Shown: one piece after another, positions 32,408-51,797 of the stretch
How the letters are laid out: every line of letters begins with the position of its first letter
Position numbering within the stretch: the stretch's first letter is position 1
Translations under genes and position numbers: made by a program
The notes under the pieces: model-generated
Databases searched by the model: none
What the model saw: the letters and a program-made list of their open reading frames with translations, nothing else
Told to the model about the DNA's origin: nothing
DNA from: Oscillospiraceae bacterium
GTDB lineage: Bacteria > Bacillota > Clostridia > Oscillospirales > Oscillospiraceae
Direction: 5' to 3'
Length of the DNA stretch: 64,000 bases
Assembly (NCBI GenBank): GCA_910575695.1
Contig: CAJTGJ010000006.1
Location: 62,001 to 126,000 of the forward strand

Positions 32408-32442
32408 CACATCACCAGCCCTTCTTGTGTGAGATCAAAGAT

Positions 32443-33009: not shown

Positions 33010-33257
33010 TCTGCCATCCTCTTATAATCTGACGCAAAATCAGCCAATAACTGGTCGGTATCTGCCAGCATTGACTCCTTAGACACAAGAGCATCTGGCT
33101 CTTGAATTGTTACAGCGAATGGCATTCCCTTTGCGCGTACAAAGGCATTGGCAAAAATATTGAAAGCAGTGGACGTTGTCATTCCCAGCTTGGCACAGAT
33201 AGCGGCCATCTCTGCTTTCACATCGGAATCCATGCGGAATGTCATGTTGGTATCCAT
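33006..33257 (-). CDS. RelB/DinJ family antitoxin
   Basis: 83 residues from ATG 33257; an upstream start would extend through the promoter. The N-terminus MDTNMTFRMDSDVKAEMAAI is the ribbon-helix-helix DNA-binding part of DinJ-type antitoxins, with the STAFNIFANAFV helix next; the C-terminal tail would wrap the toxin. It would repress its own promoter together with the toxin. Pairing of DinJ with Doc instead of a RelE-fold toxin is a hybrid arrangement. AGGAGG lies close to the start. Confidence 0.85.
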   Translation of the reverse strand: MDTNMTFRMDSDVKAEMAAICAKLGMTTSTAFNIFANAFVRAKGMPFAVTIQEPDALVSKESMLADTDQLLADFASDYKRMAE

Positions 33258-33279
33258 ACCATCGCCTCCTCGCACGACA

Positions 33280-33308
33280 ATTATAGTACATACTGTGTGC
33301 AAAGTCAA
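33280..33308 (-). promoter_or_regulatory. Promoter of the toxin-antitoxin operon
   Basis: TTGACT (33303-33308 on the minus strand), 17 bases, and a perfect TATAAT (33280-33285). It lies 20 bases before the antitoxin ATG, within reach of an autoregulatory antitoxin. Confidence 0.85.
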
Positions 33309-33410
33309 GTTCAATTCAGTGTTATCTATTTTATACGCGCCAGGGCATTTTGTTTGCAAGCCAAGGAAATTACGGCAGCACCACACAAAGACCGCCCGAG
33401 CACACCTGCT

Positions 33411-34586: not shown

Positions 34587-34681
34587 GGCTGTCAGCTCCT
34601 TTCTTATAATAGGATAACACATAGTATGTCTTTCGGCCAATTAGATTTTTGGATTATATCAGATATAACTTATAAAAGCAG

Positions 34682-34795: not shown

Positions 34796-35261
34796 TACTG
34801 TTCCATGCTTTTTGTAGCCCTTGACAAAGAATATCTGGGCTATGGGACTTTTGGACACACGTTTTCGGCCGGACGGATTACAATCTGCTGTTGACCTTTG
34901 TTGGATTTCTTGTTTTATCGGCAACATTGGGAGCCCCCCGGCATTTTCGCAAATGTTGCAGCAGCTCGTCTCCAGGCACGAAGTCCTGGCCGGCGTTGCC
35001 GCCAGCCAGGTGATCAGTAATGTTCCAGCTGCGCTACTGTTGTCCGGGTTTACGGAAAACTTGTCCGCACTGATCATCGGCGTCAATCTTGGCGGGCTTG
35101 GGACGTTGATCGCGTCTATGGCAAGTTTGATATCCTACAAGCTCATTGCGCGGGAAGAAAGTCAGGTCAAAGGGGCGTATTTCCGGTATTTTACGGTGGC
35201 GAATGTCTGCTTTCTTGTGGTCCTGTTGGTGTTTGCACTGATTCTTGAAGCACAAATTTGA
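34796..35261 (+). pseudogene. Anion permease (ArsB/SLC13-like), C-terminal remnant with frameshift
   Basis: The plus frame encodes ASQVISNVPAALLLSGF, LIIGVNLGGLGTLIASMASL and two more hydrophobic helices, the C-terminal half of an ArsB/NhaD-SLC13 type permease. The preceding helix (DYNLLLTFVGFL) is in another frame, so there is at least one frameshift near 34900. No N-terminal half is present. Residual sequence of a decayed transporter gene. Confidence 0.7.
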
Positions 35262-35270
35262 CGAAATAGA

Positions 35271-35299
35271 TTGAAAAACAGCAGCCGCTATGGTAGTAT
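35271..35299 (+). promoter_or_regulatory. Likely promoter of the BREX operon
   Basis: TTGAAA (35271-35276), 17 bases, TAGTAT (35294-35299). It begins a leader of about 115 bases before ATG 35420, in an A+T-rich stretch with no gene. The -10 is moderate. Confidence 0.6.
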
Positions 35300-35419
35300 A
35301 TACTTAGTTTTTTATATCAACACCTGAAACGACTATTGCGAACGGCAAAAACAGATGGCGTAGTAGATGATTGGGGTTACATACAAAACTATTGAGAACA
35401 CTGGAAGAAGCTAACGAAC

Positions 35420-38400
35420 ATGGTCAGACAAATACCATTTACAAAATATGAAGCGGCTCTACTTTTAGATGCCTATCTAAAAGTACTATCTGGCGAACTA
35501 TCCCGGGTGGATTCTGTCAAAAACTGCTCTCAATTGTTGCGATTAATGGCAGTCAACGAAGGAATTGAAATTGATGAAACATACAGAAATGTGAATGGCA
35601 TTTCATTTCAAATGGCAAGTATGGAGTCCGCCTATCAAGGAAAAACAATCATGAAACCTGCAACTCAGCTATTCACAGAAACTGTTCAACTTTTTCGGGA
35701 TAATAATAAAGAATATCATAATTTGTTGAACAAGGCAAAAGATATGGCTACTGAAAAACGAGATGGTGAAGCTACGGCGCTCCAAATGTGTGAACTATGC
35801 ACGACTAACCCGGCTGAGCACCAAATGATTTTGGAGGAGACGAATCGAATGACTGGAACACCGTCCAAGTCTGTTGAGGACGCCTTCTTTATGTATGCAA
35901 AAGACAAAACCGGATTTCCACCCAAAATGCTGGTTGACTATTTGCAAAAAGCAGCTGATTACTGCCATCTCAAACAGCCTCTCTTGGGCATGACTGATGC
36001 CAAAGCTGTCCATAACGTACAGAAAAAGGTTGCCGAGGGAAAACTTTTACGGTTCCGTTTTGGAAAAAATGCGCAGGCCATTCGTAGTGTCACACAGCTC
36101 TATTATGCCTTTATCAAAAGTTATTGTGAGCCTAAGGAAGATGCCATCACTCAGACAGCTCCTCTGATGAAGGATGCTGTTGTGGAACAGGCTGCTTCTG
36201 ACGCAGTCGAACAGGCAACTGCGGAAAACGTACCCATTATTTCTGTGGAAGAGGTCGGCGCTCTTGATGAAATCGTCGAAACAGCGGAGGGCTCAGCTCT
36301 CCAGGGGGAAACAACCAGTGTACCGGCAAATGATCAGTCTCTGGTTGATTTCAGCCAGGATGGTACATATTTGTTCACCAAGCCGGTCTCTTACACCTAC
36401 AAGGGCGAGGTATACCCTGCAAAGTCCTGGAATCGGATTTATGTGGAGATTTGCGGACTTCTCTTTGCTGATTATCGCGATGCTTTTATGGGCATCATGA
36501 ACGAGGATATTCCTGGATACAACACTCTGGCTTTTGCCGATGAGCGGAATTACCGGCGTATGCGAGTGCCGAAAAGTTTTGCCCCTGGCTATTATCTTGA
36601 GTCCAACCTGGATGCCACTACCATCGTCCGCAAAATACGTGGACTACATCAGTTGTTCGGGCTTGGAGACAAGTTGAGGATCTCATATAGAAGTGAGGAC
36701 GGGGGGGGCGAAACATCAGAAAAAGCGCCAAACAAAGAATGGATTATCGTGCAGTTGAAAGCGCGGGGACTCACCTATCAGGACAAACGGAACTGGGGTG
36801 GATGTCTCTGGATTGTTGGCGATCATGGGCTGGATGCGTTTATTCAGGAATGTAGGATAAAAGGCTATAAACTGTCTTACAAAGCAGATGGCTGCAAAAC
36901 CTATCCCAATCGCCCCGTATGGTGGACGAAGGATCATCCAAAGCAGCCCATCAAAGCAACACCTGTCATTCCAACTGGCGAAGGTCAAATTTCCTTGGAC
37001 GCTTTCAAGCAGTTCCTGATCCAGGAAAAGGGCCTTGCGGATAGGACTGCTGGCAACTATTCGACCTCCATTCGGATGATTGAAGCGTATATCCAGCGCA
37101 ATCATCTGGATTTCTCACTGTTGAATGCAGACGCAACTGGTGCCCAGAAAATTTTTGACTTTCTTATGGCGCGACCGGACTTTGAACAAATCAACATCCA
37201 ACGTCACCGCCAGTTTAGTGCGGCCTTAGTTCAATTTGTCATTTTCCTTCGTCAAGACGGAAGCATAGCCCATGGAGGAGAGCAGAAGCTGACAGGGAAA
37301 AAAACAATCATTGAAACCGTCTTTGATGTCCTTCGTCAAGCAGGAAAACCTATGACAGTTTCAGAAATTTATCAGGCGATTATCCGGGACAATCTCTACC
37401 CCTTTGGCGCACAGAACCCGCAGTCGGTTGTGTATAGCAAAGTTTCGCTTGCATACAGGCAAACCGATACCCGCATCAGAGAAGGAAGAGATGTACTGAT
37501 TCGCGCAGAGAAAGACGGTCGAAGGGTATTTCAGGTCATGTCCGCCAAAGAAGCAGCTGCATTCCTTGAAAATCAGCAAAGGAAATCTGAGCTGGAGACC
37601 GCATCACCATGGGTGGAATACGAGGCCGTTCTCAAGCAGGCCTTCCCTAAGGGATTTCAAAAGGAATCTGTCTTGGACATGAAGAAACTGCGGAAACGCT
37701 GGGCGGAGATTCACGGAGAAGAGCTGAGGGACTCTAACGAAATCGTTCGCCTACAGCTGACAGCGCACTGCGTGGATACTGGCAAGCGATGGTATCTGGC
37801 GGAACTTCTGCTGTCCGATGAAGATCGGTGGACAGTTCTACAGTACATCGAACGTGTGCTCAACAGCGGAAAGCCGGTGCTCTACTATTCTTCCATCTAT
37901 GCCGCGCTGGAGCATCAGCTGGAAAGCGCGGTGCTGACGGAAGATTTGCTGGTCAGTTATCTGCTGGCGACTTGCCAGGATCGGTATATCCTCCGGGAAC
38001 ACTATTTGACCAACGACCGCCACGCGCAGGTGAATCTTCCTGAAGAAATTACGGACGTGATGCTAGCTTACGGTCGTCCCATTCATACAGATGAGCTGAA
38101 ACAGGCGCTGCATCATTTCCCGCCAAATCAGGTGGAGCGAGAGCTTCACATTCATTCGGAGTTCATCATGGATGCTTTCCACACGTACTTCCATGAATCT
38201 ATGGCGGACCTGACAGCTCAGGAGCTGGATCAGATTGCTGCATTTATCCAGGAAGAGCTGGATAATCAGGGGTATATGATTGGCGATTGGATTCAGCGAA
38301 AGCTGGTTCAGTTATATCCAGAAACTGCCGAGCGCCTCAGTTTCCTGACGCCCTTGGGGGTGCGCGGCGCAGTGGCTTATAAGCTGCGGAATCGCTTTAC

Positions 38401-39007
38401 GTTCTCAGGCCCGGTGATCACACTCAAGGGCAACACAATGAGCATGACCGACATCTTTGCCATGTTCTGTCAGCGCCATGCGCCGTTTACACTGGATGAA
38501 TTAACGGCCTTTGCCAAGGAATGCGATTCGACCATCTATATGGACACGGTTCACAGGAACTGCGCCCGTGTCAGCGAGACAGAGTTCGTTGAGACAGGAG
38601 CCGTGCGCTGGGACATTCCCCGTGTGGATGCTGCCATCGCGTTGCACTGTCCGGGAAAGTATGTATCACTGAAGAACATTCAGTATTTCGATGCGTTCCC
38701 CTACGTGGGGTACTCGTGGAATAGTTACCTGCTGGAGCAGTATGTGGCCACCGTAAGCAAGAATTTCACGCTGATGCACTCTAGCTATGCCAAGAACAAT
38801 GTCTCAGGCGCTATCGTACGCCGGGATGCAGGGCTTGATTTCTTTGACGATGTTCTGGCAGACATTCTGGCTAACGCTCCAGTGGATTTGGAGAAAGATC
38901 CATGCCTAGAGCATCTGGCCAATGCGGGCTATATCACCAGGAAGAAGCTTTCCAGCATCAACGAAATTATTACGAGAGCCAAAATGCTGCGCTCTCAGAA
39001 AGGATGA
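35420..39007 (+). CDS. BREX-associated large protein with HARE-HTH domain
   Basis: 1195 residues, no single known family over its whole length. Visible parts: an N-terminal helical domain (KYEAALLLDAYLKVL, then NVNGISFQM, to about 105); a middle domain with YPAKSWNRIYVEICGLLF (about 325-430); a phage-integrase SAM-like N-terminal domain (about 521-615: SLDAFKQFLIQEKGL ... YSTSIRMIEAYI); a HARE-HTH winged helix (about 626-707: PMTVSEIYQAIIRDNLYPF); and a long C-terminal part. HARE-HTH is known to link nucleases to DNA modification sensing, so this may be a specificity or sensing subunit. It starts the BREX-like operon. An eight-G run at 36711-36718 lies in frame near residue 431. The start has a weak ribosome site. 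Confidence 0.8.
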   Translation: MVRQIPFTKYEAALLLDAYLKVLSGELSRVDSVKNCSQLLRLMAVNEGIEIDETYRNVNGISFQMASMESAYQGKTIMKPATQLFTETVQLFRDNNKEYHNLLNKAKDMATEKRDGEATALQMCELCTTNPAEHQMILEETNRMTGTPSKSVEDAFFMYAKDKTGFPPKMLVDYLQKAADYCHLKQPLLGMTDAKAVHNVQKKVAEGKLLRFRFGKNAQAIRSVTQLYYAFIKSYCEPKEDAITQTAPLMKDAVVEQAASDAVEQATAENVPIISVEEVGALDEIVETAEGSALQGETTSVPANDQSLVDFSQDGTYLFTKPVSYTYKGEVYPAKSWNRIYVEICGLLFADYRDAFMGIMNEDIPGYNTLAFADERNYRRMRVPKSFAPGYYLESNLDATTIVRKIRGLHQLFGLGDKLRISYRSEDGGGETSEKAPNKEWIIVQLKARGLTYQDKRNWGGCLWIVGDHGLDAFIQECRIKGYKLSYKADGCKTYPNRPVWWTKDHPKQPIKATPVIPTGEGQISLDAFKQFLIQEKGLADRTAGNYSTSIRMIEAYIQRNHLDFSLLNADATGAQKIFDFLMARPDFEQINIQRHRQFSAALVQFVIFLRQDGSIAHGGEQKLTGKKTIIETVFDVLRQAGKPMTVSEIYQAIIRDNLYPFGAQNPQSVVYSKVSLAYRQTDTRIREGRDVLIRAEKDGRRVFQVMSAKEAAAFLENQQRKSELETASPWVEYEAVLKQAFPKGFQKESVLDMKKLRKRWAEIHGEELRDSNEIVRLQLTAHCVDTGKRWYLAELLLSDEDRWTVLQYIERVLNSGKPVLYYSSIYAALEHQLESAVLTEDLLVSYLLATCQDRYILREHYLTNDRHAQVNLPEEITDVMLAYGRPIHTDELKQALHHFPPNQVERELHIHSEFIMDAFHTYFHESMADLTAQELDQIAAFIQEELDNQGYMIGDWIQRKLVQLYPETAERLSFLTPLGVRGAVAYKLRNRFTFSGPVITLKGNTMSMTDIFAMFCQRHAPFTLDELTAFAKECDSTIYMDTVHRNCARVSETEFVETGAVRWDIPRVDAAIALHCPGKYVSLKNIQYFDAFPYVGYSWNSYLLEQYVATVSKNFTLMHSSYAKNNVSGAIVRRDAGLDFFDDVLADILANAPVDLEKDPCLEHLANAGYITRKKLSSINEIITRAKMLRSQKG
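36711..36718 (+). repeat. In-frame G8 homopolymer tract
   Basis: Eight G bases inside the first BREX gene encode part of a Gly-rich linker (EDGGGET). A slip by one base would truncate the protein near residue 431. In other genomes, G tracts in defence genes are phase-variable. Confidence 0.6.
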
Positions 39008-39013
39008 GTGTCT

Positions 39014-41383
39014 ATGTATTCCTACGAATGGGATGCTGAGACTGGCGGATATGTGCTGAACAGTACGCCACTGCCGTTCAGCAAAGAGCCGCGACCGGTG
39101 TACTATCGGGAGATGGATTTGCTTGGCTTTGATAAGTATTGGGATTATGAAAAAGATGACACTTATCCTTATATGTGGGCGGAGACAAATAAGTATTGGT
39201 ACCGCGGAGAATTAGTAGCGCAATTAAAAGGAGGCACTCTATTTCAGACTCCTGAATTGATACCAGATGAGAATGCAAGAAGAAACATTGTACGCTTTGT
39301 TCCTGTAGACATTGCGAAAATGGTATCGCGCAATAGCAGTATTCTTGATAGCCTTACGGCGGAGACAATCAAGAATACATATAATACATACATTGGATAC
39401 AAAGACAAAGTTGATTTGTTTTATGTGGCTTTTAGCGGAGGTAAGGACAGTGTTGTAGCCCTTGACATCGTTCAGAGAGCTATACCACATGACGATTTCT
39501 TGGTGCTGTTCGGAGATACGCAAATGGAGTTCTCTGACACTTATGATGTAATTGAGCAAACGAGAAAACAGTGCGAAGAGAAAGGTATCCGGTTCTTAGT
39601 AGCCAGATCAAAGCTTGAGCCTGGATATACGTGGGATAGAATAGGCCCTCCTGCGCAAAAGATGAGGTGGTGCTGTAGCGTTCATAAAACTGCACCACAG
39701 ATTATTCGACTACGCAAATACATGAGGAATCCTCATTTCCGTGGAATGGCAATGATGGGAGTTAGAGGCGACGAAAGCATAGCGCGCAGTAAATACGATG
39801 TCGTAAATCTCGGAACAAAGCATAAAGGTCAGTATGATTATTATCCAATCCTGCGATGGAATTCAGCAGAATTGTTTCTCTATATATATCAGCAAGGGCT
39901 AATCATTAACAGAACCTATCTTCTGGGAAATAACAGAGCTGGTTGTCTTGTTTGCCCAATGGCATCAAAAAAAGGCTCTTGGGTCAGAGAACAGCTTTAC
40001 GGCGATAGCCCAGATGCGAAGCATTCAACCAAATTCTTTAATGACCTAATCGTTAAAAAATCAGTTGCCAGTACTATGCTGCCAGCTGCACAACGTGAAT
40101 TCATGGAGTTTGAGGGCTGGAAGTCCAGACATGATGCACGAAAGCTGAGTGCGCCGGATTTGGTGTACGACGATGAAATGCTATCCGGAGTACAGATTAT
40201 TCGCATCAAGCGAATATCAACGAATTGGAGAGAGTGGATTAAGACCATCGGGGAAATAACGTATCAAGAGCCAAGAACGGTGCGTATCCATTTCGGAACT
40301 GAGTGGTTTACAGCGAGCTATGAAGAAAAAGATGAGGGACTGGAATTCCGAATCAAAACCAGCAATACAAAGGACGAAATTCTATTTATTGCAGCATTAA
40401 AGAATATCTTGCGAAAATCAGCCTATTGTATTGGCTGCCAAGTATGCGAAGCAAATTGTCCAAATGGCTTTATAAGTTTTGAGAATGGTGATGTACATAT
40501 CGATGATCGGTGTGTACATTGTCTAATGTGCCACAAGGTTTCATCTTCAAGCTGCTGGGTAGCTGAATCACACAAAATGCCAAAGGAGAAGAGTACGATG
40601 ACTACAAGTATCGATCGATATAAAACGCTTGGCGTTCAGTTTTCTTGGGTGAGGGATTACTTTGAGAAAAAGAACGATTTCTGGGATAATAATAATTTGG
40701 GAACGATGATGTTAAGCCCACTTAAAGCGTTTTTAGCTGATACCGGAGTAAGTCGAAAGGGAAAGATTACTGCTTTTGGCGAGCTTGTTGACACAATCGG
40801 CATTGATAGTGAAACTGCTTGGGCGCTAATGCTTTGTAACGCGGCCTATACTTCTGAAATTAATTGGTGGGTCAAGAATATCTCTTTCAACCGCCCCTAT
40901 ACCCCTGCGGAAATTATGGCGCTTTTGATGGATGATGTGTCCTCAGAAAAATCCCGGAAAAACGTTGTTTCCGCCATTAAAAATCTGTGTAGCAGCAATC
41001 CAATATTGGGGGACCGGATTGGCCTTGGTCATTGTAACAGCGAACAAAAGGGACGAGTAACTCATCTTCTTGATATCACTAGGACTACTTGGTCTGCTCC
41101 CGATCCCCTCGTCATCCTTTACTCCCTCTATAAGTTTGCGGAAGCCTGCGAGGGATACTATCAGTTTACCCTTACCACGCTGATAGACGATACCGTCGAA
41201 CGCAGCGGCATCAGCCCTACAGAAATTTTCGGTTTAGGCACCGAGACCATGGAAAGGCTGCTCAACGGCCTATCCATCAATCACCCGGAATTTATCAACT
41301 GCTCCTTCAAAATGGATCTGGACAGCATTACTCTGCGGCCCGGCAAGACCTCAGATGACGTGCTGGAACTTTTCAAAGCATAA
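39014..41383 (+). CDS. brxP: BrxP-like PAPS reductase / ferredoxin / DUF4007 protein
   Basis: 789 residues from ATG 39014 (GAAAGGA nine bases upstream; GTG 39008 is too close). Domain 1 is an N-type ATP-pyrophosphatase/PAPS reductase: SGGKDS at 141-146, a cysteine pair in RWCCSVHK and GCLVCPMAS. Domain 2 is an 8-Cys ferredoxin-like part (CIGCQVCEANC near 470, CVHCLMC near 500). Domain 3, from about 549 to 780, is DUF4007 (LSPLKAFLADTGVSRKGKI). This triad is related to DndC-type sulfur enzymes of DNA phosphorothioation and marks BREX type 4. The gene is 6 bases after the 1195-residue gene stop. Confidence 0.85.
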   Translation: MYSYEWDAETGGYVLNSTPLPFSKEPRPVYYREMDLLGFDKYWDYEKDDTYPYMWAETNKYWYRGELVAQLKGGTLFQTPELIPDENARRNIVRFVPVDIAKMVSRNSSILDSLTAETIKNTYNTYIGYKDKVDLFYVAFSGGKDSVVALDIVQRAIPHDDFLVLFGDTQMEFSDTYDVIEQTRKQCEEKGIRFLVARSKLEPGYTWDRIGPPAQKMRWCCSVHKTAPQIIRLRKYMRNPHFRGMAMMGVRGDESIARSKYDVVNLGTKHKGQYDYYPILRWNSAELFLYIYQQGLIINRTYLLGNNRAGCLVCPMASKKGSWVREQLYGDSPDAKHSTKFFNDLIVKKSVASTMLPAAQREFMEFEGWKSRHDARKLSAPDLVYDDEMLSGVQIIRIKRISTNWREWIKTIGEITYQEPRTVRIHFGTEWFTASYEEKDEGLEFRIKTSNTKDEILFIAALKNILRKSAYCIGCQVCEANCPNGFISFENGDVHIDDRCVHCLMCHKVSSSSCWVAESHKMPKEKSTMTTSIDRYKTLGVQFSWVRDYFEKKNDFWDNNNLGTMMLSPLKAFLADTGVSRKGKITAFGELVDTIGIDSETAWALMLCNAAYTSEINWWVKNISFNRPYTPAEIMALLMDDVSSEKSRKNVVSAIKNLCSSNPILGDRIGLGHCNSEQKGRVTHLLDITRTTWSAPDPLVILYSLYKFAEACEGYYQFTLTTLIDDTVERSGISPTEIFGLGTETMERLLNGLSINHPEFINCSFKMDLDSITLRPGKTSDDVLELFKA

Positions 41384-41400
41384 CATAGGAGGAATCGGTC

Positions 41401-44400
41401 ATGGCCGAGTTGTATAGAGACTACTTTGACATAGACCCGGAGTTTTTCCCTGCCGTCAACGCCAGCGTCATCGAACAGCACCCCAACCTCTGGGAAAAGT
41501 TCTATCCACACGAGACGTTTGTCAAACTCATGCGGGATCTGATCAGCTGCGTCGGTCGCTTGCAGAAGCTGTCCGTCTGGGTGGAGGGTGAATACGGCAC
41601 CGGGAAATCCCATGCTGTACTGACACTCAAAAAGCTGCTAGAGGCGGACGATGCCACCACGAAGGCTTATTTTGACCGTTTCCCGGAGCAGTTGGGCAAT
41701 GACCTGTATAACAAACTCTATTCTCTGAAGCACGCTGGGAACATTCTGGTGGCACACCGATATGCCTCTTCTGACATTACTAGCGAGACGGATCTACTCT
41801 TTGACGTGCAGGACAGCATTGTGGCCGCACTGCGCGAAAAGGGGTATAAGGAGGGCGACGGCGCGTTGCGGTCAGCAGCCATCCAGTGGCTGAGTGATAC
41901 GGATAACAAAGCCTACTTCAACGGCCTGATGAAGGGTACCTATGCTGCAACCTTCGCCGGAGACGATGTGGACGCCCTGATTAAAAAGTTACAAACATTT
42001 GAAGGTTTGCCGCTTTCCGAAATCATGACCAAGGTCATGAAGTTGGCCAACGAGCGTGGCATCCGTGTCCTGACGCTAACCAAAGAGGTGCTACAGGACT
42101 GGATTCGTGCGGTCATTAAGGATAATAACTTGTACGGTCTCATCTTCATATGGGATGAGTTTACGGATTTCTTTAAAAATAATCGAACACGCCTGTCCGG
42201 CCTACAGGCACTGGTGGAAATGTCCGAGGGTGACTTTTTCTATCTGATTCCTGTCACCCACAATGTAGCCAACCTGTTCCCAGCCAAGGACAAGGACTGG
42301 AATGTCATCAGTCACCGCTTTGTATTGCCCTTTTGCAACATTGAGCTGCCGGACAACATGGCCTTTCGTCTGATGGGTAAAGCTCTGGAAAAGCGCCAAG
42401 ATACGCACCTGATGGACGAATGGCAGGAAACCTCCGAGGAACTCTATGAGCGCACCAGAGACGCCCGCGCCTTAGTGAAAAAACAGGCCAAGATTCAAGA
42501 TACGGAGTTGCGCGATGTGCTTCCCTTACATCCTTATGCCGCACTGCTGCTCAAGAACATGGCCAGCTATTATGCTGGAGATGTGCGAAGCATGTTTGAC
42601 TTCCTGAAAAACGACACAGGAGATGAGATCCGTGGCTTCAAATGGTTCATTGATACCTTCGGCCCTGCGGATGACAATCCGCTACTGACAGTGGACCTGC
42701 TATGGGACTTCTTCTATGAAAAGGGCAAAGAACTGCTGGACAGGGATGTCCGCAAGGTGCTGGATAGCTTTGGTCGCGCACGCAATCTAATTGGTGATGA
42801 GCCTCGTATCCTAAAAGCGATTCTGCTCATGCAGGCCATCTATGAGAAGACAGGTTCTCAGGTGGGAACGCTCGCTCCCAGTGCGAAGAACATCGAATAT
42901 GCCTTCATGGGTTCTGACTTGGACGATGGACAACCCACAAAAATCGCGGATAGCCTCGTCAGGAAGAAAATTCTCTACAAGACGCCGGGGTCAAACCTCT
43001 ACAGTGCGCTTCTCAGTGCAGACGATGACATTCCTCCAGTGGATGTGAAATTTTCGAACCTTCTGACGGAAGGCAAGATGCAAACAGTCATTGAGCCCAA
43101 GGACGCACTGAAACTGCGTTACGACTTTACCCTGGTCGCTGACGCAAGCCGTCTGGAACAGCAGCTCAAGGGAATTATAAATCAGGGTACAGACAACCGA
43201 ATCCATGCCGTGATTGCGTTTGCCAAGAGCGGCTTGGATGCTTATGAGCTTTCCAAGGCGTTCAGCACGTATGCGCACGACGAGCACTTCCGCTCTATTG
43301 TATTTATTGACGCAACCCTTACGCCGCTGGGCGATGACCGCTTTGAGCAGATTTCTGACTCCAAGGCCAAGTATGAATATTGGCACAAGAAGAATACTGA
43401 CATGGCTGGCCAGTACAACAACGATGTGAGCAGGGTGCTGGAAGATTGGCACAAGAGTGTCAAGAAGGGTGAGTTCATTATCTACTGGGAGGACGCACTG
43501 ACTGGCAAGCGTATTCCGACATTGGAAGCGCTTTACACCGAACTGAGCACGGTCAACCGCAGGCGCTATCCTGACGGACTGGAGACGTTTGCCGCCAATG
43601 CCACCCCTACCATGTGGCAAGCGACTCAGCTGAAGAACGGCGTTGGCCTCGGTGCTGGTTCCGGCGGAACATTGGGACAGTTCAGCTGTGTTCCCAAGGA
43701 TTTGGGCGAGGCCTGGACCACGGAGCGTTATTGGGAAACACTGCCTCTGCTGACCATCTCGAAGATTAAACGTACAGTAGACAGCATGATCACTGAAGCC
43801 TTCAGAACAGGTGATCGGATCTCCATCCGAGACATCTATGAAAAGCTATATAAAGCGCCTTATGGCTTCATGCCCTGTAATCAGACAGCATTTATCCTTG
43901 GTTTCCTTCTGAAAGAATATGCTGATGGTTCTTTTTCCTCTAGCGACGGAATCAGACCGGCTAAACTGGATAACGAGAAGCTGAAGAACATCGTCTCCGA
44001 GTATATTTCCGAGCGCATGACACCTAATCCGCGTTACAAGGATAAGTACATCGTAAAGATGACGGAGGAGACTAAAGCCTTTGTAGCGGCCTCTGCTATG
44101 ATATTCGACCGCCCTGTCAACGTTTCACGGATGGAAGATATCCGGGATACGATAGTGCGTCCGGCCATGCACTCTCTGCCCTTCCCAATGTGGTGCCTGA
44201 AGCATCTGGGAGATGAACCAGCCTTCACAAGCAGCACTGAAAACGTGCATCAGCTGATAGATCTCTATACTGCTTTCGCCAACAGCGGCAGCACTGACGG
44301 GCGCTCCGACAATGACATTGCCTCTGACATTGGCAGACTTGTCATCCGCCATCCTGGGTTGGCTGAGGATTTGCGTAGCATTATGTCCGAACAGAAGGTA

Positions 44401-45585
44401 CGGGAGGGCATGAAAAACTATCTGGATGATTTTGAGAACGGTATCCTGTCCAAGCTTGGTGAACAGATCGGTGATGGTGGGCAGTATATCACCCGCTTGC
44501 AAAAGAGGTTTAGCGCCGATGCGGCAAACTGGGTCTGGTTCAAGGAAACTGCCGATCAACAGATTCGTATGCTGATTTTGGAGTACAGGATCATTCTCGC
44601 CAGCAATGCGGTGATTCTTCACAGCAACTCCTTCGGAGGCTGCATTGAGGAGTGGTGCAACGTCTGCAAAAATATCAAGATCTCCTACCTATATGCCAAA
44701 AATTACTGGGACGATCTGGGGCCGTTCATGGAGCTTCTGTATGGAATCAAGAAATCCGGCGAACTCCAGGAAAACCGCCGGGAACAGTTCCTGCAACTAA
44801 TCACAGATAAAGGCGCGAACTTCAAATCTTTCTACAATCATCAAGAAAGTGTGTTTGCCAATGCCTGCAGCTATATCCTCCAGGGCCTTGGCCAAGATTT
44901 TGTCAGTGAAATTTATAAACAGTTGCCAGGAAGTGACCTCTTCACATCCGAAAAGAGCTACTATCAACGGTGTGTGCAGGAAACGGTGAAGACCTGGAGT
45001 GAGAGGCAGGAAAGCGCAAAACTGATCAAAGCTTGGAAAGACGCGACAAAGACGGAGTCACCCCGTGCCTGGTCGCAAGCCTATCTGATGCCTGTTCTCT
45101 GCATGGTGGATGATCCCAACGAGGAAATCATAGCCAAAAAAGCTTTTGATACCATCAATGCCGTTGCTAAGAAAAAGAGAGTCGATGGACGGAGTATAGA
45201 GGACACCATGAAATTCCTGCAGTCCCATACTGTTCTGCTACAAAAGTTGGGTGACTCTGCCGTGCGTGATGATGCTTTCCGTAAGCGTATCCTGGGTCGC
45301 TATGACGTGTTGCTCCAGAACATTGAAGAAGTTAAAAGAGAGCTGGAACAGCACCTGCTGGAGCACCCGTACGACTGGTACCATCTGACCAGTTTAGAAA
45401 ATGCGCTCTGCAAGAAAGCCGAATTCGTGTATAACGGATCGGGTTATGAACTTGCGGTTCAAAAGATCGATGGGATGGATATTGCAGATGTGAAGCGCTA
45501 TTTGAAGGAGCTCATTGAGAAGAACATGACCGTTGGCATCGAGATTATACGCGAAACCCGAGGTGCTCTGCATGAAGATCAGTGA
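41401..45585 (+). CDS. brxC: BREX ATPase BrxC/PglY-like
   Basis: 1394 residues. Walker A is GEYGTGKS at 63-70 and Walker B is LIFIWDEF at 247-254, followed by a long helical region. Size, a P-loop near the N-terminus and position between the PAPS-reductase and PglZ genes identify the BrxC/PglY family, a large P-loop ATPase needed for phage exclusion in BREX. A GGAGG site precedes ATG 41401. Its stop is overlapped 14 bases by the pglZ start. No obvious damage. Confidence 0.88.
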   Translation: MAELYRDYFDIDPEFFPAVNASVIEQHPNLWEKFYPHETFVKLMRDLISCVGRLQKLSVWVEGEYGTGKSHAVLTLKKLLEADDATTKAYFDRFPEQLGNDLYNKLYSLKHAGNILVAHRYASSDITSETDLLFDVQDSIVAALREKGYKEGDGALRSAAIQWLSDTDNKAYFNGLMKGTYAATFAGDDVDALIKKLQTFEGLPLSEIMTKVMKLANERGIRVLTLTKEVLQDWIRAVIKDNNLYGLIFIWDEFTDFFKNNRTRLSGLQALVEMSEGDFFYLIPVTHNVANLFPAKDKDWNVISHRFVLPFCNIELPDNMAFRLMGKALEKRQDTHLMDEWQETSEELYERTRDARALVKKQAKIQDTELRDVLPLHPYAALLLKNMASYYAGDVRSMFDFLKNDTGDEIRGFKWFIDTFGPADDNPLLTVDLLWDFFYEKGKELLDRDVRKVLDSFGRARNLIGDEPRILKAILLMQAIYEKTGSQVGTLAPSAKNIEYAFMGSDLDDGQPTKIADSLVRKKILYKTPGSNLYSALLSADDDIPPVDVKFSNLLTEGKMQTVIEPKDALKLRYDFTLVADASRLEQQLKGIINQGTDNRIHAVIAFAKSGLDAYELSKAFSTYAHDEHFRSIVFIDATLTPLGDDRFEQISDSKAKYEYWHKKNTDMAGQYNNDVSRVLEDWHKSVKKGEFIIYWEDALTGKRIPTLEALYTELSTVNRRRYPDGLETFAANATPTMWQATQLKNGVGLGAGSGGTLGQFSCVPKDLGEAWTTERYWETLPLLTISKIKRTVDSMITEAFRTGDRISIRDIYEKLYKAPYGFMPCNQTAFILGFLLKEYADGSFSSSDGIRPAKLDNEKLKNIVSEYISERMTPNPRYKDKYIVKMTEETKAFVAASAMIFDRPVNVSRMEDIRDTIVRPAMHSLPFPMWCLKHLGDEPAFTSSTENVHQLIDLYTAFANSGSTDGRSDNDIASDIGRLVIRHPGLAEDLRSIMSEQKVREGMKNYLDDFENGILSKLGEQIGDGGQYITRLQKRFSADAANWVWFKETADQQIRMLILEYRIILASNAVILHSNSFGGCIEEWCNVCKNIKISYLYAKNYWDDLGPFMELLYGIKKSGELQENRREQFLQLITDKGANFKSFYNHQESVFANACSYILQGLGQDFVSEIYKQLPGSDLFTSEKSYYQRCVQETVKTWSERQESAKLIKAWKDATKTESPRAWSQAYLMPVLCMVDDPNEEIIAKKAFDTINAVAKKKRVDGRSIEDTMKFLQSHTVLLQKLGDSAVRDDAFRKRILGRYDVLLQNIEEVKRELEQHLLEHPYDWYHLTSLENALCKKAEFVYNGSGYELAVQKIDGMDIADVKRYLKELIEKNMTVGIEIIRETRGALHEDQ

Positions 45586-47854
45586 TATTTATGGGCGAAT
45601 AGAAAGATACCTACGCAGTAATGATACGCGGCCGAGGATTGTCAATTTCCAAGACCGCGCACCCCTCATTGCGTTCCGGGATCATTTTAACGTCGGAAAT
45701 TCTGTCTTTAAAACGCCATCTGAATACAGCAAGTTCGATGAAGATCCCATGACAGAGAATCTGTATGCGGAGATTCAATCGTTCAAAGGGAATCTGTTCC
45801 TGATTGGCTTCACATCTCAACTGAGGCTGAAAGGTCGTGATGCTCTGCATCAGTTCATTACGCAGATTGCGCATATAACGCTAAACGCCGGGAAACTGAT
45901 TCTCGTATGCTTTGGCTGTGTAGAAATGCTTCACTTCGATGATACCCGTATCCAAGGATTGGTGTATTCTGCGGATGGCGCAACCAGTACCCTTCCTCAA
46001 TTGCGCTTTGTCGGTGACGGCATTCCAATCTCCAACAGCCAAAAGGTGACAAAAGGTATTGACAAAATTGGACTGCTAGTTGAGACTGTTAATGCCGATA
46101 CCCTCGTTATACGTACAAAAAAATTTGCGCTAGATTATCCGAATTCAATGCTTCACATAGAAGAACTCGTAGATGCTTACGCCGCATTGTGTGACATTGA
46201 TCCTGCCACCGCCGGATTGGATAAATTGCTGGGTAAAGCGGAGCAGTGGACCTTTGCATTGGATGAGATTACATCCAACGGCAGCTGGAATAGCCTGGTA
46301 ACACATATGTTTGGCAGTGCTTATTCCCTTGAACTCGCTGTTGCACAGTGGGACCGCTTCACCGATGATATGCAGTGGCTGTATTTCATCGCGCTGAAAC
46401 TCTTTGGCTCACAGAAGAATTGGTGCTTAAATCAAGCTGCAGGTGCAGCTTCGTCGCCCAAGGATATGGTGCGGAAGATCTATCGCTCTATTCTGGGCGA
46501 AAACTGCCATTCCTCGATCTTCATTAAGCGGTATCGCGAAAGAAAACAACTGCTACAGCAGATGTTTGATATGGAAGATGATACTGATGTCATTGACTAT
46601 ATTCAAATGACAAAGCAACACAAAAAAGACGCGATACGCTATCTGACAAATAATACGAAGCTTGAAAAAGAAGCCATCATCGACTTGATCAGTGTTTATG
46701 CTGAGGAGTACACCCCTCAGGAACTCCGGAGCATTTTGGTGGAGGTATACCCCGACCTGGCTGCTTACCTGGAACCGTACTCTTTCCCTGGGAACGCTTG
46801 GTTGGATGCATATTTCACGGAATATCGTTATTCAAAAGTTATGAACCGGGTTTCGCCAGAGCTGAGAGAAATGGCGCAACAGCAGGCTGTCGATCATGAT
46901 TTTTTGAAACTTTTGCCCAGGATTGCTGTGGTAGACAGCATACCTAAAGGAGGAACCTTCCTTTTCTTCGTCGATGCTATGGGCGTAGAGTTTATTCCAT
47001 ATATCGTACAGAAATGTCGGAAATATGATCTGAAGTTTACTGTAACGGTATCACACTGTGAACTTCCATCGCTTACTCGATGTAACAAGGATTTCTTTGA
47101 ATCCTATCCTCCTGAGCAGAGAACGAAAGTTTCTGAACTGGATGATATCATTCATCACGGCAAAGAGAACTACGATTATCAAGTGACCAAGACACCGCTT
47201 CATTTGATTCGTGAACTGGAAATCATTGATGAGGTGCTTAGGAATGCGAGGACAAGGCTTTTGTCCGGCAATTCAACTAGGGTGCTTCTGGTTGCCGATC
47301 ATGGTGCGACCCGAATGGCTGTGATAAACGAGCACATCATCGATATTGATGTCAACTCCAAGGGAACGAACGGCGGACGAGTGTGTGAATATACTGAAGC
47401 CGTTAAATCAGTTCCCTGCGCTATCCCTGAGGGTAGCTATTACATACTTGCAAGCTATGACCGCTTTAAAGGTGGACAGCCCGCCAACGTCGAAGCACAT
47501 GGCGGAGGGACGCTAGAAGAGGTCGTCGTTCCCGTGATAACACTGTCAATGCCGACTGAAGAGATCGAAGTTCAGGTAGAGCCCAAGATTATTGAGTACA
47601 GTTTCAAGCAACAGCCCGTATTGAAGCTATTCTCAAAAACGATTCTTACAAATGTTAGTGTGCTGATCAACGGAAAATGGTACGAAGCGGATACCTCAGT
47701 GGACGGTCAGAACTTCTCGTTTACGCTGGCGGGTCTTAAGAAAGGTCAGTATACTGCTACCCTGTATGCCAATAAAAGCGAAGTTGCCGCCGAACTTACA
47801 TTTGAATTGAGAAGTAAAGCCGGTAGTTCAACGGGCAAGGCTGGCATACTATAA
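45572..47854 (+). CDS. pglZ: PglZ alkaline-phosphatase-superfamily protein
   Basis: 760 residues from ATG 45572 (GAGGTG six bases upstream); an earlier start at 45533 lies within brxC. The PglZ domain has LFFVDAMGVEFIP near 467 and VADHGATRMAV near 575, supplying the metal-binding aspartates and histidine of the alkaline-phosphatase fold. A beta-sandwich-like C-terminus follows. PglZ is the hallmark protein of BREX, working with BrxC. Confidence 0.92.
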   Translation: MKISDIYGRIERYLRSNDTRPRIVNFQDRAPLIAFRDHFNVGNSVFKTPSEYSKFDEDPMTENLYAEIQSFKGNLFLIGFTSQLRLKGRDALHQFITQIAHITLNAGKLILVCFGCVEMLHFDDTRIQGLVYSADGATSTLPQLRFVGDGIPISNSQKVTKGIDKIGLLVETVNADTLVIRTKKFALDYPNSMLHIEELVDAYAALCDIDPATAGLDKLLGKAEQWTFALDEITSNGSWNSLVTHMFGSAYSLELAVAQWDRFTDDMQWLYFIALKLFGSQKNWCLNQAAGAASSPKDMVRKIYRSILGENCHSSIFIKRYRERKQLLQQMFDMEDDTDVIDYIQMTKQHKKDAIRYLTNNTKLEKEAIIDLISVYAEEYTPQELRSILVEVYPDLAAYLEPYSFPGNAWLDAYFTEYRYSKVMNRVSPELREMAQQQAVDHDFLKLLPRIAVVDSIPKGGTFLFFVDAMGVEFIPYIVQKCRKYDLKFTVTVSHCELPSLTRCNKDFFESYPPEQRTKVSELDDIIHHGKENYDYQVTKTPLHLIRELEIIDEVLRNARTRLLSGNSTRVLLVADHGATRMAVINEHIIDIDVNSKGTNGGRVCEYTEAVKSVPCAIPEGSYYILASYDRFKGGQPANVEAHGGGTLEEVVVPVITLSMPTEEIEVQVEPKIIEYSFKQQPVLKLFSKTILTNVSVLINGKWYEADTSVDGQNFSFTLAGLKKGQYTATLYANKSEVAAELTFELRSKAGSSTGKAGIL

Positions 47855-47865
47855 GGAGCAATCAC

Positions 47866-49308
47866 ATGGAAGAAAAACTGCGTGAAGTATTTGAGGAAAT
47901 GGCGGTCTATAAGGACTTAAAGACAAGCAATTTTCTGAAAACACTGGGGTTACCCTCGTTCCTTCGCGATTGGCTGCTGAGGAAATTTGAAGATGACGAG
48001 GGGCAATTCGATATTGCAGAACTGCAGGAATTTGTCCGTACGTATTTTCCGCGTCAGGATGAATGGACAAAAATCAAAGATCAAATCATGTTCGAAAATG
48101 AACGCGTAAGTATTCTGACAAAAATCATTGTTAGCATTGAAATTAAAACGCAGGCGGTTACATTTGAGTTACCTGCTTTTGGACTTACTCCCAAGGAAAC
48201 TATTATTGAGTCTGACGTTTGGAATGATGTCAAAGACGAACTGGTCAACAGCAAGGAAACTTGGGGTGTTGTCGAACTGGGATACAGAATGCCAATGCCC
48301 GAAATGCATCAGCAGGGGAAAATCAAGCTAACCAATTTTACAAGTTTTTGTCCGTATACGGTTGATCTTGATTTCTACAAAGAAGCCCGAGCGGAGTTTA
48401 CCACAGAAGAGTGGATTCGGCTTCTCCTTGGCGCTATTGACTACAACGCTGACGGATACAAAAGCGAAACAGAAAAATTGGCTACCCTGACACGGCTTCT
48501 TCCTTTTGTTGAAAAGCGATTGAATTTGATTGAACTTGCACCAAAGGGCACAGGGAAATCCTATCTGTTTGGGCAGATCAGCCGATTTGGCTGGCTTTCG
48601 AACGGAGGTACGATGTCCAGGGCCAAGATGTTTTATGACATGAGCAAACGAGCACCAGGTCTTGTCAGCTGCAACGATTATGTTGCCATTGATGAAATCC
48701 AGGCTACCGAGTTCCCAAATCCTCTTGAAATGCGTTCTTCGCTGCAGGGATATCTTGAAAACAATGGCACCTTTACTGTGGGTACATACAGCGGAACTGG
48801 TGAGGCTGGACTTATTCTTCTGGGGAATATTGATCAAGAAATCATGGACGAATATCAGTTTATGTTCGGAGACCTTCCTGGTATTTTTAGAATCGACGGA
48901 GCGTTGCTTGACAGGTTCCACGGATTCATCAAAGGGTGGGATATACCGCAGGTAAATGACGGGATGAAAATTTGCGGTTGGGCACTGAATTCGGAATATT
49001 TCTGCACGATTATGCATCTTCTCCGCGAAGATATCAGCTATCGGGCTATTGTTGATCAATTGCTCGAGGTGCCAGATGATGCTTATACAAGAGATACTGA
49101 GGCAGTAAAGCGCATTGCAACTGCCTATTTGAAGCTCTTGTTCCCGCAAGTTAAAACAGTAGAGGATGTGAATCCAAAGGAGTTTAAACGTTATTGTCTG
49201 ACACCTGCATGCAAGATGAGAAGAATTATCCGTATGCAAATCAGTATGTTCGACAGTTCGTACAACAGCGAGCTGCCACAATTCACAATAAGGGAAGTTG
49301 CAAAATGA
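47866..49308 (+). CDS. brxL: BrxL-like AAA ATPase, short form without Lon protease domain
   Basis: 480 residues. The N-terminal part and AAA core match BrxL (LIELAPKGTGKSYLFGQISR with Walker A near 224; VAIDEIQA Walker B near 273; LLGNIDQ sensor). Canonical BrxL is about 200 residues longer, ending in a Lon-type Ser/Lys protease domain, which is absent here: the ORF ends at TGA 49306-49308 and the next gene begins at once. BrxL forms rings on DNA and acts in phage exclusion. A short form suggests the ATPase alone is needed or the protease was lost. Confidence 0.85.
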   Translation: MEEKLREVFEEMAVYKDLKTSNFLKTLGLPSFLRDWLLRKFEDDEGQFDIAELQEFVRTYFPRQDEWTKIKDQIMFENERVSILTKIIVSIEIKTQAVTFELPAFGLTPKETIIESDVWNDVKDELVNSKETWGVVELGYRMPMPEMHQQGKIKLTNFTSFCPYTVDLDFYKEARAEFTTEEWIRLLLGAIDYNADGYKSETEKLATLTRLLPFVEKRLNLIELAPKGTGKSYLFGQISRFGWLSNGGTMSRAKMFYDMSKRAPGLVSCNDYVAIDEIQATEFPNPLEMRSSLQGYLENNGTFTVGTYSGTGEAGLILLGNIDQEIMDEYQFMFGDLPGIFRIDGALLDRFHGFIKGWDIPQVNDGMKICGWALNSEYFCTIMHLLREDISYRAIVDQLLEVPDDAYTRDTEAVKRIATAYLKLLFPQVKTVEDVNPKEFKRYCLTPACKMRRIIRMQISMFDSSYNSELPQFTIREVAK

Positions 49309-49502
49309 AGTATATCTGTATCGCATGCGGCAAAGAAATAACTGAGAAAGATACGATTGGTATTAACAAAAAGCTTCTTGGGAATAAGGTTAAAAGCCTC
49401 TATTGCATGCCATGTCTCGCGGATTACCTTGGAACCACTGTAGAAGATCTGAATGAAAAGATTGAAGAATTCAAGGAGGAAGGCTGTAAGCTGTTTTCAT
49501 GA
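49305..49502 (+). CDS. Small Cys-rich zinc-ribbon-like protein of the BREX operon
   Basis: 65 residues, with CIACGKE near the start and CMPCLADYL in the middle, giving two CxxC knuckles about 26 residues apart, then an acidic helix and a final cysteine (EEGCKLF). The ATG overlaps the brxL stop (ATGA) and its own stop overlaps the desulfurase start (ATGA). No family recognised. Its place suggests a sulfur- or metal-handling adaptor between BrxL and the desulfurase, or a DNA-binding partner. Confidence 0.7.
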   Translation: MKYICIACGKEITEKDTIGINKKLLGNKVKSLYCMPCLADYLGTTVEDLNEKIEEFKEEGCKLFS

Positions 49503-50635
49503 GCAAAATGATGATTTACGCAGACCATGCTGCAACTACGGCAATGAGTTCAGTCGCTTATGAAGCCATGTTACCGTGGCTCCAGAACAAATATGGCAAC
49601 CCATCTACTCTCTACAGCTTTGCCCGGGAACCGCGCAAGGCTGTTGCTTCAGCACGAGAAACAATAGCGGCTTGCATTGGAGCGAGGCCAGAGGAAATTT
49701 ATTTTACTTCTGGTGGTACTGAAGCAGATAACTGGGCATTGATTGGTACGGCATTCTGGGAACCTGATCGATGCGGCCATATCATCACAAGCAGCATTGA
49801 GCACCATGCAATTTTGCATACGTGCGACTTCCTAAAGCGTATAGGCTATGATATTGATTTGCTGCCTGTCAATCAGCATGGTTTAATCTTGGCTGAAACG
49901 TTGGAAAAGCATCTGCGAGGTGAAACACTGCTTGTATCTATCATGCTGGCAAACAACGAAATCGGTACAATTGAGCCTATCAAGGAACTGGCCGAAATTG
50001 CTCACCGGCATGGCAGCTTGTTCCATACAGATGCAGTACAAGCTGTCGGTCACATTCCGATTGATGTCAAAGATCTTGGCATCGATATGCTCTCAGCCTC
50101 CGCTCATAAATTCAATGGGCCCAAAGGAATTGGCTTTCTATACGTTCGTGATGGGGTGATGATTGAACCTCTTCTCCATGGTGGTGCGCAGGAAGGCGGT
50201 CGGAGAGCTGGGACCGAGAACGTCGCCGGAATTGTAGGTATGGCTACAGCGTTCCAAGAGCATATTGAGCATTTGGAACAAGAAACTACCTATGTGCAGA
50301 ATCTTGCTGACTTGCTACTAAAGGGGCTGCGGAATACGGGCCTGAACTTTATTGTGAATGGTGACGATAATCGAATTCCTGGAAGCCTAAGCCTTTCTTT
50401 TAGAGATGCAGATGGAGAAATGCTTTTACACCGACTGGATTTGATGGGAACAGCAGTGGCCACAGGGTCTGCATGTGACTCAAAGAGCACTGCTCTCTCC
50501 CATGTCATTAGGGCGATTGGTGTACCTGACGCATATGCACATGGAACGATTCGGATTACGCTTGGCATGGATAACAGCATCGAACAGGTCTCCGTTCTGG
50601 TTGAGCAGATAAGTCGTATACTCGATAATAGATAA
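49499..50635 (+). CDS. Cysteine desulfurase (IscS/NifS/DndA-like)
   Basis: 378 residues of fold-type I PLP enzyme. The PLP lysine is in SASAHKFNGPKG near residue 203; the catalytic cysteine is in ATGSACDSKS near 325, with the short loop of group I desulfurases; AGTENVAGI is typical. It makes an enzyme persulfide from L-cysteine. As the last coupled gene of the BREX-like operon with brxP, it likely supplies sulfur to the PAPS-reductase-like enzyme, as DndA does for DndC. No other sulfur-acceptor scaffold such as IscU is in the operon. Confidence 0.92.
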   Translation: MSKMMIYADHAATTAMSSVAYEAMLPWLQNKYGNPSTLYSFAREPRKAVASARETIAACIGARPEEIYFTSGGTEADNWALIGTAFWEPDRCGHIITSSIEHHAILHTCDFLKRIGYDIDLLPVNQHGLILAETLEKHLRGETLLVSIMLANNEIGTIEPIKELAEIAHRHGSLFHTDAVQAVGHIPIDVKDLGIDMLSASAHKFNGPKGIGFLYVRDGVMIEPLLHGGAQEGGRRAGTENVAGIVGMATAFQEHIEHLEQETTYVQNLADLLLKGLRNTGLNFIVNGDDNRIPGSLSLSFRDADGEMLLHRLDLMGTAVATGSACDSKSTALSHVIRAIGVPDAYAHGTIRITLGMDNSIEQVSVLVEQISRILDNR

Positions 50636-50741
50636 CGTTGATAACACATTTAGAGTCTTTGCAAATATTTTACACCCCAGACATTCTTTCTATCCCAATG
50701 GGGATTTATGTTGCTACAAAGATGGAGCATCTCATATAGAG

Positions 50742-50785
50742 ATAAGGTTCTTGCCGGTGCTGTATCCGGCAAGAACCTTATTTTT
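50742..50785 (+). terminator. Terminator of the BREX operon
   Basis: A 16-bp perfect stem, ATAAGGTTCTTGCCGG (50742-50757) with CCGGCAAGAACCTTAT (50766-50781), then TTTTTG. Very strong. Confidence 0.95.
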
Positions 50786-50816
50786 GTATCAAAATTGATG
50801 TTTACAATTAAAATAT

Positions 50817-51137
50817 CTAAACTGTTTCAATCAAACAATCAAGAATTGCTTCAATCTTATGCTGCTTCTCCAAGTCCAGCCCTCCCAGCTTCTCTGCTAG
50901 AGGCGTCCATCGAATAGCTGTGTCCGATGCGATGTACGCCGCCAGGATGGAATCAGCACTAGTCCCAAGGGCATTACAAATATCAATCAAAGTAGGTAGC
51001 GCAGGTATCAGCAGCCCACGCTCAATCCTTGAGATCGAGTTGGAAGCAACGTCCGTCATCTCCGCAAGCTGCTCCTGGGTCAGTCCACGTTCCTTGCGTA
51101 TGCGCTGTATCGCCTGTCCACCCTGCTTAAAGTCCAT
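50817..51137 (-). CDS. XRE-family HTH regulator
   Basis: 106 residues. An N-terminal Cro/C1-type HTH is clear: IQRIRKERGLTQEQLAEMTDVASNSISRIERG. A short helical C-terminus (LDLEKQHKIEAILDCLIE) may dimerise. Divergent from the SLOG gene and convergent with the BREX operon. It may regulate its own unit, the SLOG gene or BREX; no operator is obvious. Confidence 0.88.
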   Translation of the reverse strand: MDFKQGGQAIQRIRKERGLTQEQLAEMTDVASNSISRIERGLLIPALPTLIDICNALGTSADSILAAYIASDTAIRWTPLAEKLGGLDLEKQHKIEAILDCLIETV

Positions 51138-51206
51138 TGCTATCCCCCTACACGATGTTTTCTCTTGTATTATGAGCGAATTAGACGTGTTAAATCCAGA
51201 ACCCTA

Positions 51207-51235
51207 TGGACAAAACTCGACGTATAGAGTATAAT
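51207..51235 (+). promoter_or_regulatory. Promoter of the SLOG gene
   Basis: TGGACA (51207-51212), 17 bases, and a perfect TATAAT (51230-51235), 31 bases before the ATG at 51267. Confidence 0.75.
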
Positions 51236-51266
51236 TAGATGTAACTCTTTGCGGAGGTGAAGTCCT

Positions 51267-51797
51267 ATGCTGGAGAACTCCTGCGCCTTCACCGGACATC
51301 GTCCACACAAGCTCCCGTGGCGGTATAACGAAGCTGATAGCCGTTGCCTGGCTCTGAAAGCAGCATTGTCGGAGCAGATCACACGATTAGTTGATGCTGG
51401 GGTAACAGACTTCTACAGTGGTGGTGCGGATGGAGTAGACTGCTGGGCCGCGCTGATTATCCTGGAGCTACGCAAAAAGAACCCTGCGCTGCGGCTCCAT
51501 ATGTGTCTCCCCCATGAAGGACAGGCAGACAAGTGGAATGATTCAGCGCAGGAGCGGTATCGTTCGATTTTGAAGCAAGCCGATTCAATAGTGTATGTGA
51601 GCCGTGCGTATTACGATGGCTGTATGCTTGACCGGAACCATCGGTTGGTGGAATCTGCCGGTTCGCTGTTGGCTGTTTACAATGGAGAGCGGCGTGGTGG
51701 TACAGCGGCAACCATTCGATACGCTCGGAAACTAGGACGAAAAATCGTGATCCTTGACCCCGTATCCTTTGAATCCCGTGTGGAGCAGGCCGTATAA
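51267..51797 (+). CDS. SLOG family protein (DUF1273-like)
   Basis: 176 residues of the SLOG/YpsA type, with CAFTGHRPHKLPW at the start and DFYSGGADGVDCWAA in the nucleotide-binding loop, and VYVSRAYYDGCMLDRN. SLOG proteins are Rossmann-like, and are predicted to bind nucleotide or ADP-ribose-type ligands and often occur in phage-conflict loci. A CGGAGGTGA site is seven bases upstream. Next to BREX it could be an accessory sensor, but it has its own promoter. Confidence 0.85.
   Translation: MLENSCAFTGHRPHKLPWRYNEADSRCLALKAALSEQITRLVDAGVTDFYSGGADGVDCWAALIILELRKKNPALRLHMCLPHEGQADKWNDSAQERYRSILKQADSIVYVSRAYYDGCMLDRNHRLVESAGSLLAVYNGERRGGTAATIRYARKLGRKIVILDPVSFESRVEQAV

Follow-up and report, generated by a model that had tools for sequence, protein, structure and literature searches.

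A BREX type 4 operon of an Oscillospiraceae bacterium in which a large first gene, Q1, and a zinc-ribbon gene are more regular among near relatives than the cysteine desulfurase gene

We analyzed a 64,000-nucleotide stretch of DNA from an Oscillospiraceae bacterium (assembly GCA_910575695.1, contig CAJTGJ010000006.1, positions 62,001 to 126,000; hereafter the window), in which seven genes stand head to tail on the plus strand between 35420 and 50635, in the order Q1-brxP-brxC-pglZ-brxL-zinc-ribbon gene-cysteine desulfurase gene; Q1 is a label coined here for the first gene, which encodes 1195 residues. Judged by its sequence, the operon is a BREX (bacteriophage exclusion) system of type 4, and taken together our findings make it likely that it serves in phage defence as a member of the phosphorothioate class, with its parts acting as proposed below. 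Phosphorothioation by type 4 BREX, and the link of a desulfurase to it, are already published, and Q1 is the less-known part. The original prediction, made from the sequence, had described a single plus-strand unit with a PAPS-reductase protein, a BrxC-like ATPase, PglZ, BrxL, a Cys-rich 65-residue protein and a desulfurase, and all of these are present; what it overlooked is Q1 itself (35420-39007, ATG start), so position 35420 is not the start of the PAPS-reductase gene. The order of the genes is more than chance, since the same order was seen in loci of many genera.

The published background, which we cite from excerpts of the papers named, matches the chemistry of the original prediction. 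Type 4 BREX is described as a phosphorothioate system in PMC12839542, with PMC12707154 in agreement, while PMC11931770 counts brxPCZL among the phosphorothioate synthesis gene families and states antiviral activity for type 4 BREX; the placement of sulfur in DNA is thus reported by all three, and BREX is not mentioned in the excerpts of a fourth paper, PMC10853773. According to PMC12839542, a cysteine desulfurase accompanies type 4 BREX in 255 of 457 taxa, a small zinc-finger gene often co-occurs with it, and the desulfurase donates sulfur to the PAPS-reductase-like sulfur-transfer protein, housekeeping desulfurases being proposed as its replacement in loci without one. Because both the phosphorothioation and the desulfurase with its zinc-finger gene are in print there, the headline of the original prediction, a sulfur-based BREX with its own desulfurase as donor, was already known. 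The operon of the window has in common with that description all four core genes, a BrxP fused to a DUF4007-like domain, and the desulfurase and small zinc-ribbon genes. It differs by the extra upstream gene, Q1 not being named in the excerpts of the type 4 account in PMC12839542, and in that the zinc finger is described there as a frequent companion of the desulfurase, whereas here the corresponding gene follows brxL with or without a desulfurase.

Each of the four core proteins could be assigned by family models, in agreement with the original prediction of type 4. BrxP (39008..41383, GTG start) matches PADLOC model PDLC02510 with 781 bits over residues 3-789, and the BrxC/PglY-like ATPase (41401..45585, 1394 residues) matches PDLC02485 with 786 bits over residues 1-1384, although the NCBIfam model BREX_BrxC gives it only 33.6 bits against a cut-off of 400; it also matches SspC models of PADLOC, more weakly. 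PglZ (45572..47854, 760 residues from the ATG at 45572, which is the likelier start in a frame open from a TTG at 45533 that would overlap brxC) scores 369.6 bits with the type 4 model NF033445 (BREX_PglZ_4, cut-off 140) and 251 bits with the PADLOC PglZ model. BrxL (47866..49308, 480 residues) is of the short form with BrxL_N and ATPase domains, and reaches 395.2 bits with TIGR02688 (NCBIfam, cut-off 329.3) and 685 bits in PADLOC. A search confined to the seven operon proteins gave no match to any methylase family at E 0.001 in Pfam, PADLOC or NCBIfam, in line with the lack of the PglX methylase in type 4. As in other BREX systems, PglZ and BrxL would act in restriction.

Two other phosphorothioate systems share parts with this operon. 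With regard to Ssp (SspABCD-SspE), BrxP carries SspD-like and SspB-like parts, BrxC resembles SspC as just described, and an SspA model gives the desulfurase 452 bits; however, the SspB and SspD parts are fused in BrxP, PglZ and BrxL are present, and no SspE was matched by PADLOC among the seven proteins. An Ssp system was rejected on the fusion of the SspB-like domain and the missing SspE match. With regard to Dnd, the desulfurase scores 453 bits as DndA in PADLOC and BrxP gives a weak DndC match. A Dnd system was likewise rejected, as the DndC model TIGR03183 gave 18.9 bits against a cut-off of 290.4 and neither DndD nor DndE was matched among the seven proteins in Pfam, PADLOC or NCBIfam; the desulfurase also stays below the curated cut-off of the DndA model TIGR03235 (335.6 against 480 bits). 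Elsewhere in the same genome, a 3.8-kb contig (C137; loci L232 and L137) holds SspB-like and SspD/BrxP-like genes, which may represent a second phosphorothioate system, in an assembly rated 6% contaminated.

For comparison, genome contigs were scanned with four BrxP sequences, and the best 80 of the 194 relatives were kept; some of these loci are near-duplicates, and the counts that follow describe near relatives only. Q1 could be evaluated in 75 of the 80, those in which the sequence ahead of brxP exceeds 1500 nt. BLAST found Q1 upstream of brxP in 74 of them, 71 times within 150 nt, and a profile of the Q1 C-terminus found it in all 75, with 72 within 150 nt and those of L073, L089 and L100 at 0.7-1.9 kb. 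Most of these profile matches are not independent, since 57 of the 75 loci supplied the profile; the 18 loci outside it were also matched, four of them weakly (L117, L123, L133 and L135). In the structural model of Q1, a helical N-terminal domain (residues ~1-240) and a middle of low confidence precede a winged-helix, HARE-HTH-like domain (~627-720) and a conserved C-terminal part (~734-1195), of which 935-1195 is best modeled. Among the loci, the Q1 open reading frames run from about 500 to 1490 residues and vary at the N-terminus.

A desulfurase in the position seen here is not peculiar to the window, so that the original prediction escapes one refutation it had named, a lack of desulfurases in every other type 4 locus. 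Sixty of the 80 loci have brxL and at least 1300 nt after it, and 52 of these 60 carry a desulfurase by BLAST, with the same count by profile. The protein of the window (49499..50635, 378 residues, of the NifS/DndA/SspA type) has a lysine, Lys204, and a cysteine, Cys326, that are invariant in 46 of 46 sequences, and by its family and these two residues it would take sulfur from cysteine. In eight loci (L068, L110, L114, L115, L120, L127, L133 and L135), however, no desulfurase was found in the 1.9-2.2 kb after brxL, the rest of those genomes not having been searched, and the large open reading frames after brxL in the seven of them tested belong to other families. Two of these loci have a different gene in the desulfurase place after the zinc-ribbon gene, a Schlafen/AlbA_2 gene in L120 (20614-22188) and an HNH-domain gene in L133 (20723-21997).

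The eight loci raise the question of whether the desulfurase is a dispensable, loosely held gene whose work is done by housekeeping desulfurases, which we regard as quite possible, if somewhat short of an even chance. PMC12839542, in the excerpts cited, reads desulfurase-less loci likewise, and the genome of the window has five other strong, unclassified aminotransferase-V matches. The gene is also divergent in one locus: L058 is 84.6% identical to the window in DNA over 36882-49755, and its BrxL and zinc-ribbon protein are 90-100% identical, while its desulfurase gene is only about 50-68% identical per 100 nt from 49601 on, and the protein 44-80% after the first 50 residues. Co-variation was measured by pairwise distances in the window and 45 loci with all parts (the near-duplicates L078, L083, L097 and L121 were dropped by hand and L057 was omitted), where host kinship alone raises all correlations. 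The desulfurase has the lowest correlations with the other genes, 0.45-0.57, but the gap to BrxP is small, and since BrxP itself reaches only 0.49-0.65, the desulfurase cannot be called an outsider on a low correlation by itself. Against dispensability stand also its presence in the same position in 52 of 60 loci and its correlation with BrxL of 0.45, a value that none of 999 permutations reached (maximum 0.29). The self-sufficiency in sulfur stated in the original prediction is not supported by the eight loci, the other aminotransferase-V matches and the low correlations. We favor a reading in which the desulfurase would be a common supplier that can be replaced, and not an obligatory member of the core.

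What the desulfurase supplies can also be asked. NifS, the model with which it has its best NCBIfam score (474 bits, below the cut-off of 531), builds iron-sulfur clusters, and BrxP could be a client for such a service: besides its PAPS-reductase domain (residues 140-318, Pfam), it has a ferredoxin-like Cys region at ~470-516, with Fer4 matches below cut-off, and an SGGKDS motif and 12 cysteines, laid out as CC..CxxC plus this region, that are invariant in 78 of 78 sequences, taken from the window and from those 77 loci among L058-L136 whose open reading frame exceeds 700 residues. The CC..CxxC arrangement is presumably similar to the cluster motif found in APS reductases, and DndA, going by the title of a paper on it, can reportedly assemble DndC as an iron-sulfur protein. 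It is possible, though in our view the less probable case, that the main task of the desulfurase is to assemble the BrxP clusters and that it does not itself donate the DNA sulfur directly; the two roles are compatible with one another, and the donor role is the one assigned in the excerpts of PMC12839542. The C-terminus of BrxP (~530-791) is SspB/DUF4007-like, with an HH-suite probability of 96.9 (E 1.4e-10) against four DUF4007/SspB proteins, in agreement with the fusion described there. Returning to the donor reading, BrxP, with its PAPS-reductase-like ATP-pyrophosphatase, iron-sulfur-type Cys region and SspB-like DNA domain, would put the sulfur into the DNA backbone together with BrxC.

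As for Q1, its co-variation, its fold and the neighbors of its relatives hint that it most likely binds DNA or senses an invader, working with BrxC and PglZ. The distances of its C-terminus correlate with those of BrxC at 0.95 and those of PglZ at 0.93, and in L058 its first 150 residues are only 24-36% identical per 50 residues to those of the window. Relatives of its C-terminus adjoin predicted defence genes of the PDC-M33 and PbeA types; in L215, L224, L229 and L230, the Q1 C-terminal region occurs in large proteins whose genes neighbor those of PDC-M33, a candidate system in PADLOC. Tentatively, and aware that it may well prove wrong, we propose that Q1 is an unrecognized standard component of the main type 4 branch, in which the constant C-terminus docks on BrxC and PglZ and an exchangeable N-terminus sets the DNA or invader recognized. 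That Q1 is only the transcription regulator of the operon, as its place as first gene, its winged-helix fold and the Sigma70_r4-like stretches in its relatives could indicate, is unlikely, as its size, variable N-terminus and tight co-variation with BrxC and PglZ would better fit a part of the machine.

Several points limit what can be read from Q1, the first being that the counts come from near relatives. Foldseek found no match to the Q1 model at E 0.001 or better, and the winged-helix comparison covered mainly residues 625-719; Pfam gives only HARE-HTH, below cut-off, and nothing above its curated cut-offs, and PADLOC and NCBIfam gave no match at 0.001. Moreover, five of the 11 genomes with a BrxP at 1e-60 lack Q1 or could not be judged to have it. 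One of these is an Ssp-type locus by PADLOC (G156, L240) and another resembles one by gene sizes only (G380, L241). In G474 (L239), brxP-brxC-pglZ-brxL stand without a match to Q1, the zinc-ribbon protein or the desulfurase, with 1.6 kb covered upstream; in G212 (L238), where the contig end cuts the locus, there is no Q1 in the 3.4 kb upstream of brxP; and in G449 the presence of Q1 could not be judged. Outside this set, a Methanosphaera plasmid (L237, BrxP 29% identical) likewise has brxP-brxC-pglZ-brxL without a match to any of the three, and L052 (BrxP 32% identical) has the zinc-ribbon and desulfurase genes but no match to the Q1 C-terminus, its upstream open reading frame matching Q1 over roughly the first 100 residues. 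By these gene contents, some type 4 systems do without Q1. The gene may mark one branch of them, because BrxC is shorter in two loci without Q1 (1138 residues in L239 and 1189 in L237, against a median of 1400 in 68 of the 80 loci); L052, with a long BrxC of 1398 residues and no Q1 C-terminus, speaks against this. Two observations on single loci may be added: in the plasmid L237, the gene next after brxL (22207-23928) is a DUF262 gene (PADLOC HEC-05, 649 bits, with a weak SspE match), and L242 (G327:C19) is a type 4 remnant in which brxP has an internal TAG and an open Q1 frame lies upstream, with no match to brxC, pglZ or brxL within the 20 kb examined.

The remaining gene (49305..49502) encodes the 65-residue protein with four zinc-type cysteines, C5, C8, C34 and C37, and a fifth, C61, near the C-terminus; C5, C8, C34 and C61 are invariant in 58 of 58 rows of the alignment and C37 in at least 90%. 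Its zinc binding is suggested by this arrangement. The model has a mean predicted local distance difference test score of 91.6, and no match was found at 0.001 in Pfam, PADLOC or NCBIfam, Zn_ribbon_2 being the best at a loose limit (19.3 bits against a cut-off of 22.5). The gene follows brxL in 60 of 60 evaluable loci, including all eight without a desulfurase. Its profile found 22 places in 21 of 391 genomes at 1e-5, of which 16 were examined; the six left aside were a fragment at a contig edge (G204) and the places in the five genomes where BrxP lies close by. Of the 16, L176 is a type 4 locus and the other 15 are non-BREX. In ten of these 15 (L171, L172, L173, L174, L177, L179, L181, L184, L185 and L186, from genomes of the same class), a relative with the same GCxLF-type end directly follows, at no more than 154 nt, a GH27-type alpha-galactosidase gene, and six overlap it by a few bases. 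These alpha-galactosidase genes form a single BLAST cluster; L175 and L178 have genes of the cluster nearby, and L180, L182 and L183 have none. Eight members of the cluster, seven from among those ten neighbors and the one of L178, were compared with Pfam, and all eight matched GH27 alpha-galactosidase. Given the eight desulfurase-less loci and the relatives behind alpha-galactosidase genes, the zinc-ribbon protein is, on gene neighborhood, not a dedicated partner of the desulfurase. For the same reasons it is very improbable that it carries sulfur from the desulfurase to BrxP on its fifth cysteine, in spite of the invariance of C61 and the coupling of the two genes in the window. It would rather be a regular accessory, conceivably a small adaptor that binds nucleic acid or protein.

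The layout of the operon is compact. The brxP start directly adjoins the Q1 stop codon (39007/39008), and the coupling of the last three genes seen earlier can be read directly in the DNA, as ATGA overlaps at 49305-49308 (brxL and zinc-ribbon gene) and 49499-49502 (zinc-ribbon and desulfurase genes). The terminator that had been proposed is also real as a perfect 16-bp stem (50742..50785, plus strand; arms 50742-50757 and 50766-50781, an 8-nt loop and a T run): folded alone, the stretch reaches -36.5 kcal/mol (z -10) as a hairpin of 24 bp that takes up some of the T run, and none of 200 shuffles was as good, although a simple consensus scan for terminators did not list a hairpin at 50742-50781. 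Upstream of Q1 there is a weak promoter-like site at 35271..35299 on the plus strand (9/12, with TG before the second hexamer), in a region with 19 such sites against a shuffle mean of 24.3, i.e. no excess. Upstream neighbors, all on the minus strand, are AAA_14/DUF4143 ATPase genes (31115-32410 and 33411-34640) and a RelB-type antitoxin gene (33006-33386); downstream are a Cro/C1-type helix-turn-helix gene (50817-51137, minus strand) and a YpsA/SLOG-family gene (51267-51797, plus strand). Over 34862-51382 of the window, locus L057 shows 99.2% identity. The match breaks off at 34862, some 560 nt ahead of Q1, and blastn at 1e-20 aligned none of the 5.8 kb further left in L057 with the window, which suggests that the island moves; its right end falls outside the sequence covered.

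In terms of regularity among the evaluable near relatives, Q1 (75/75) and the zinc-ribbon gene (60/60) exceed the desulfurase (52/60). The four-gene definition brxPCZL, if used alone to rebuild this branch of type 4, would omit both. If the proposal for Q1 were true, phosphorothioate BREX would have a specificity or sensor subunit that can be swapped and that is akin to components of other predicted defence systems.

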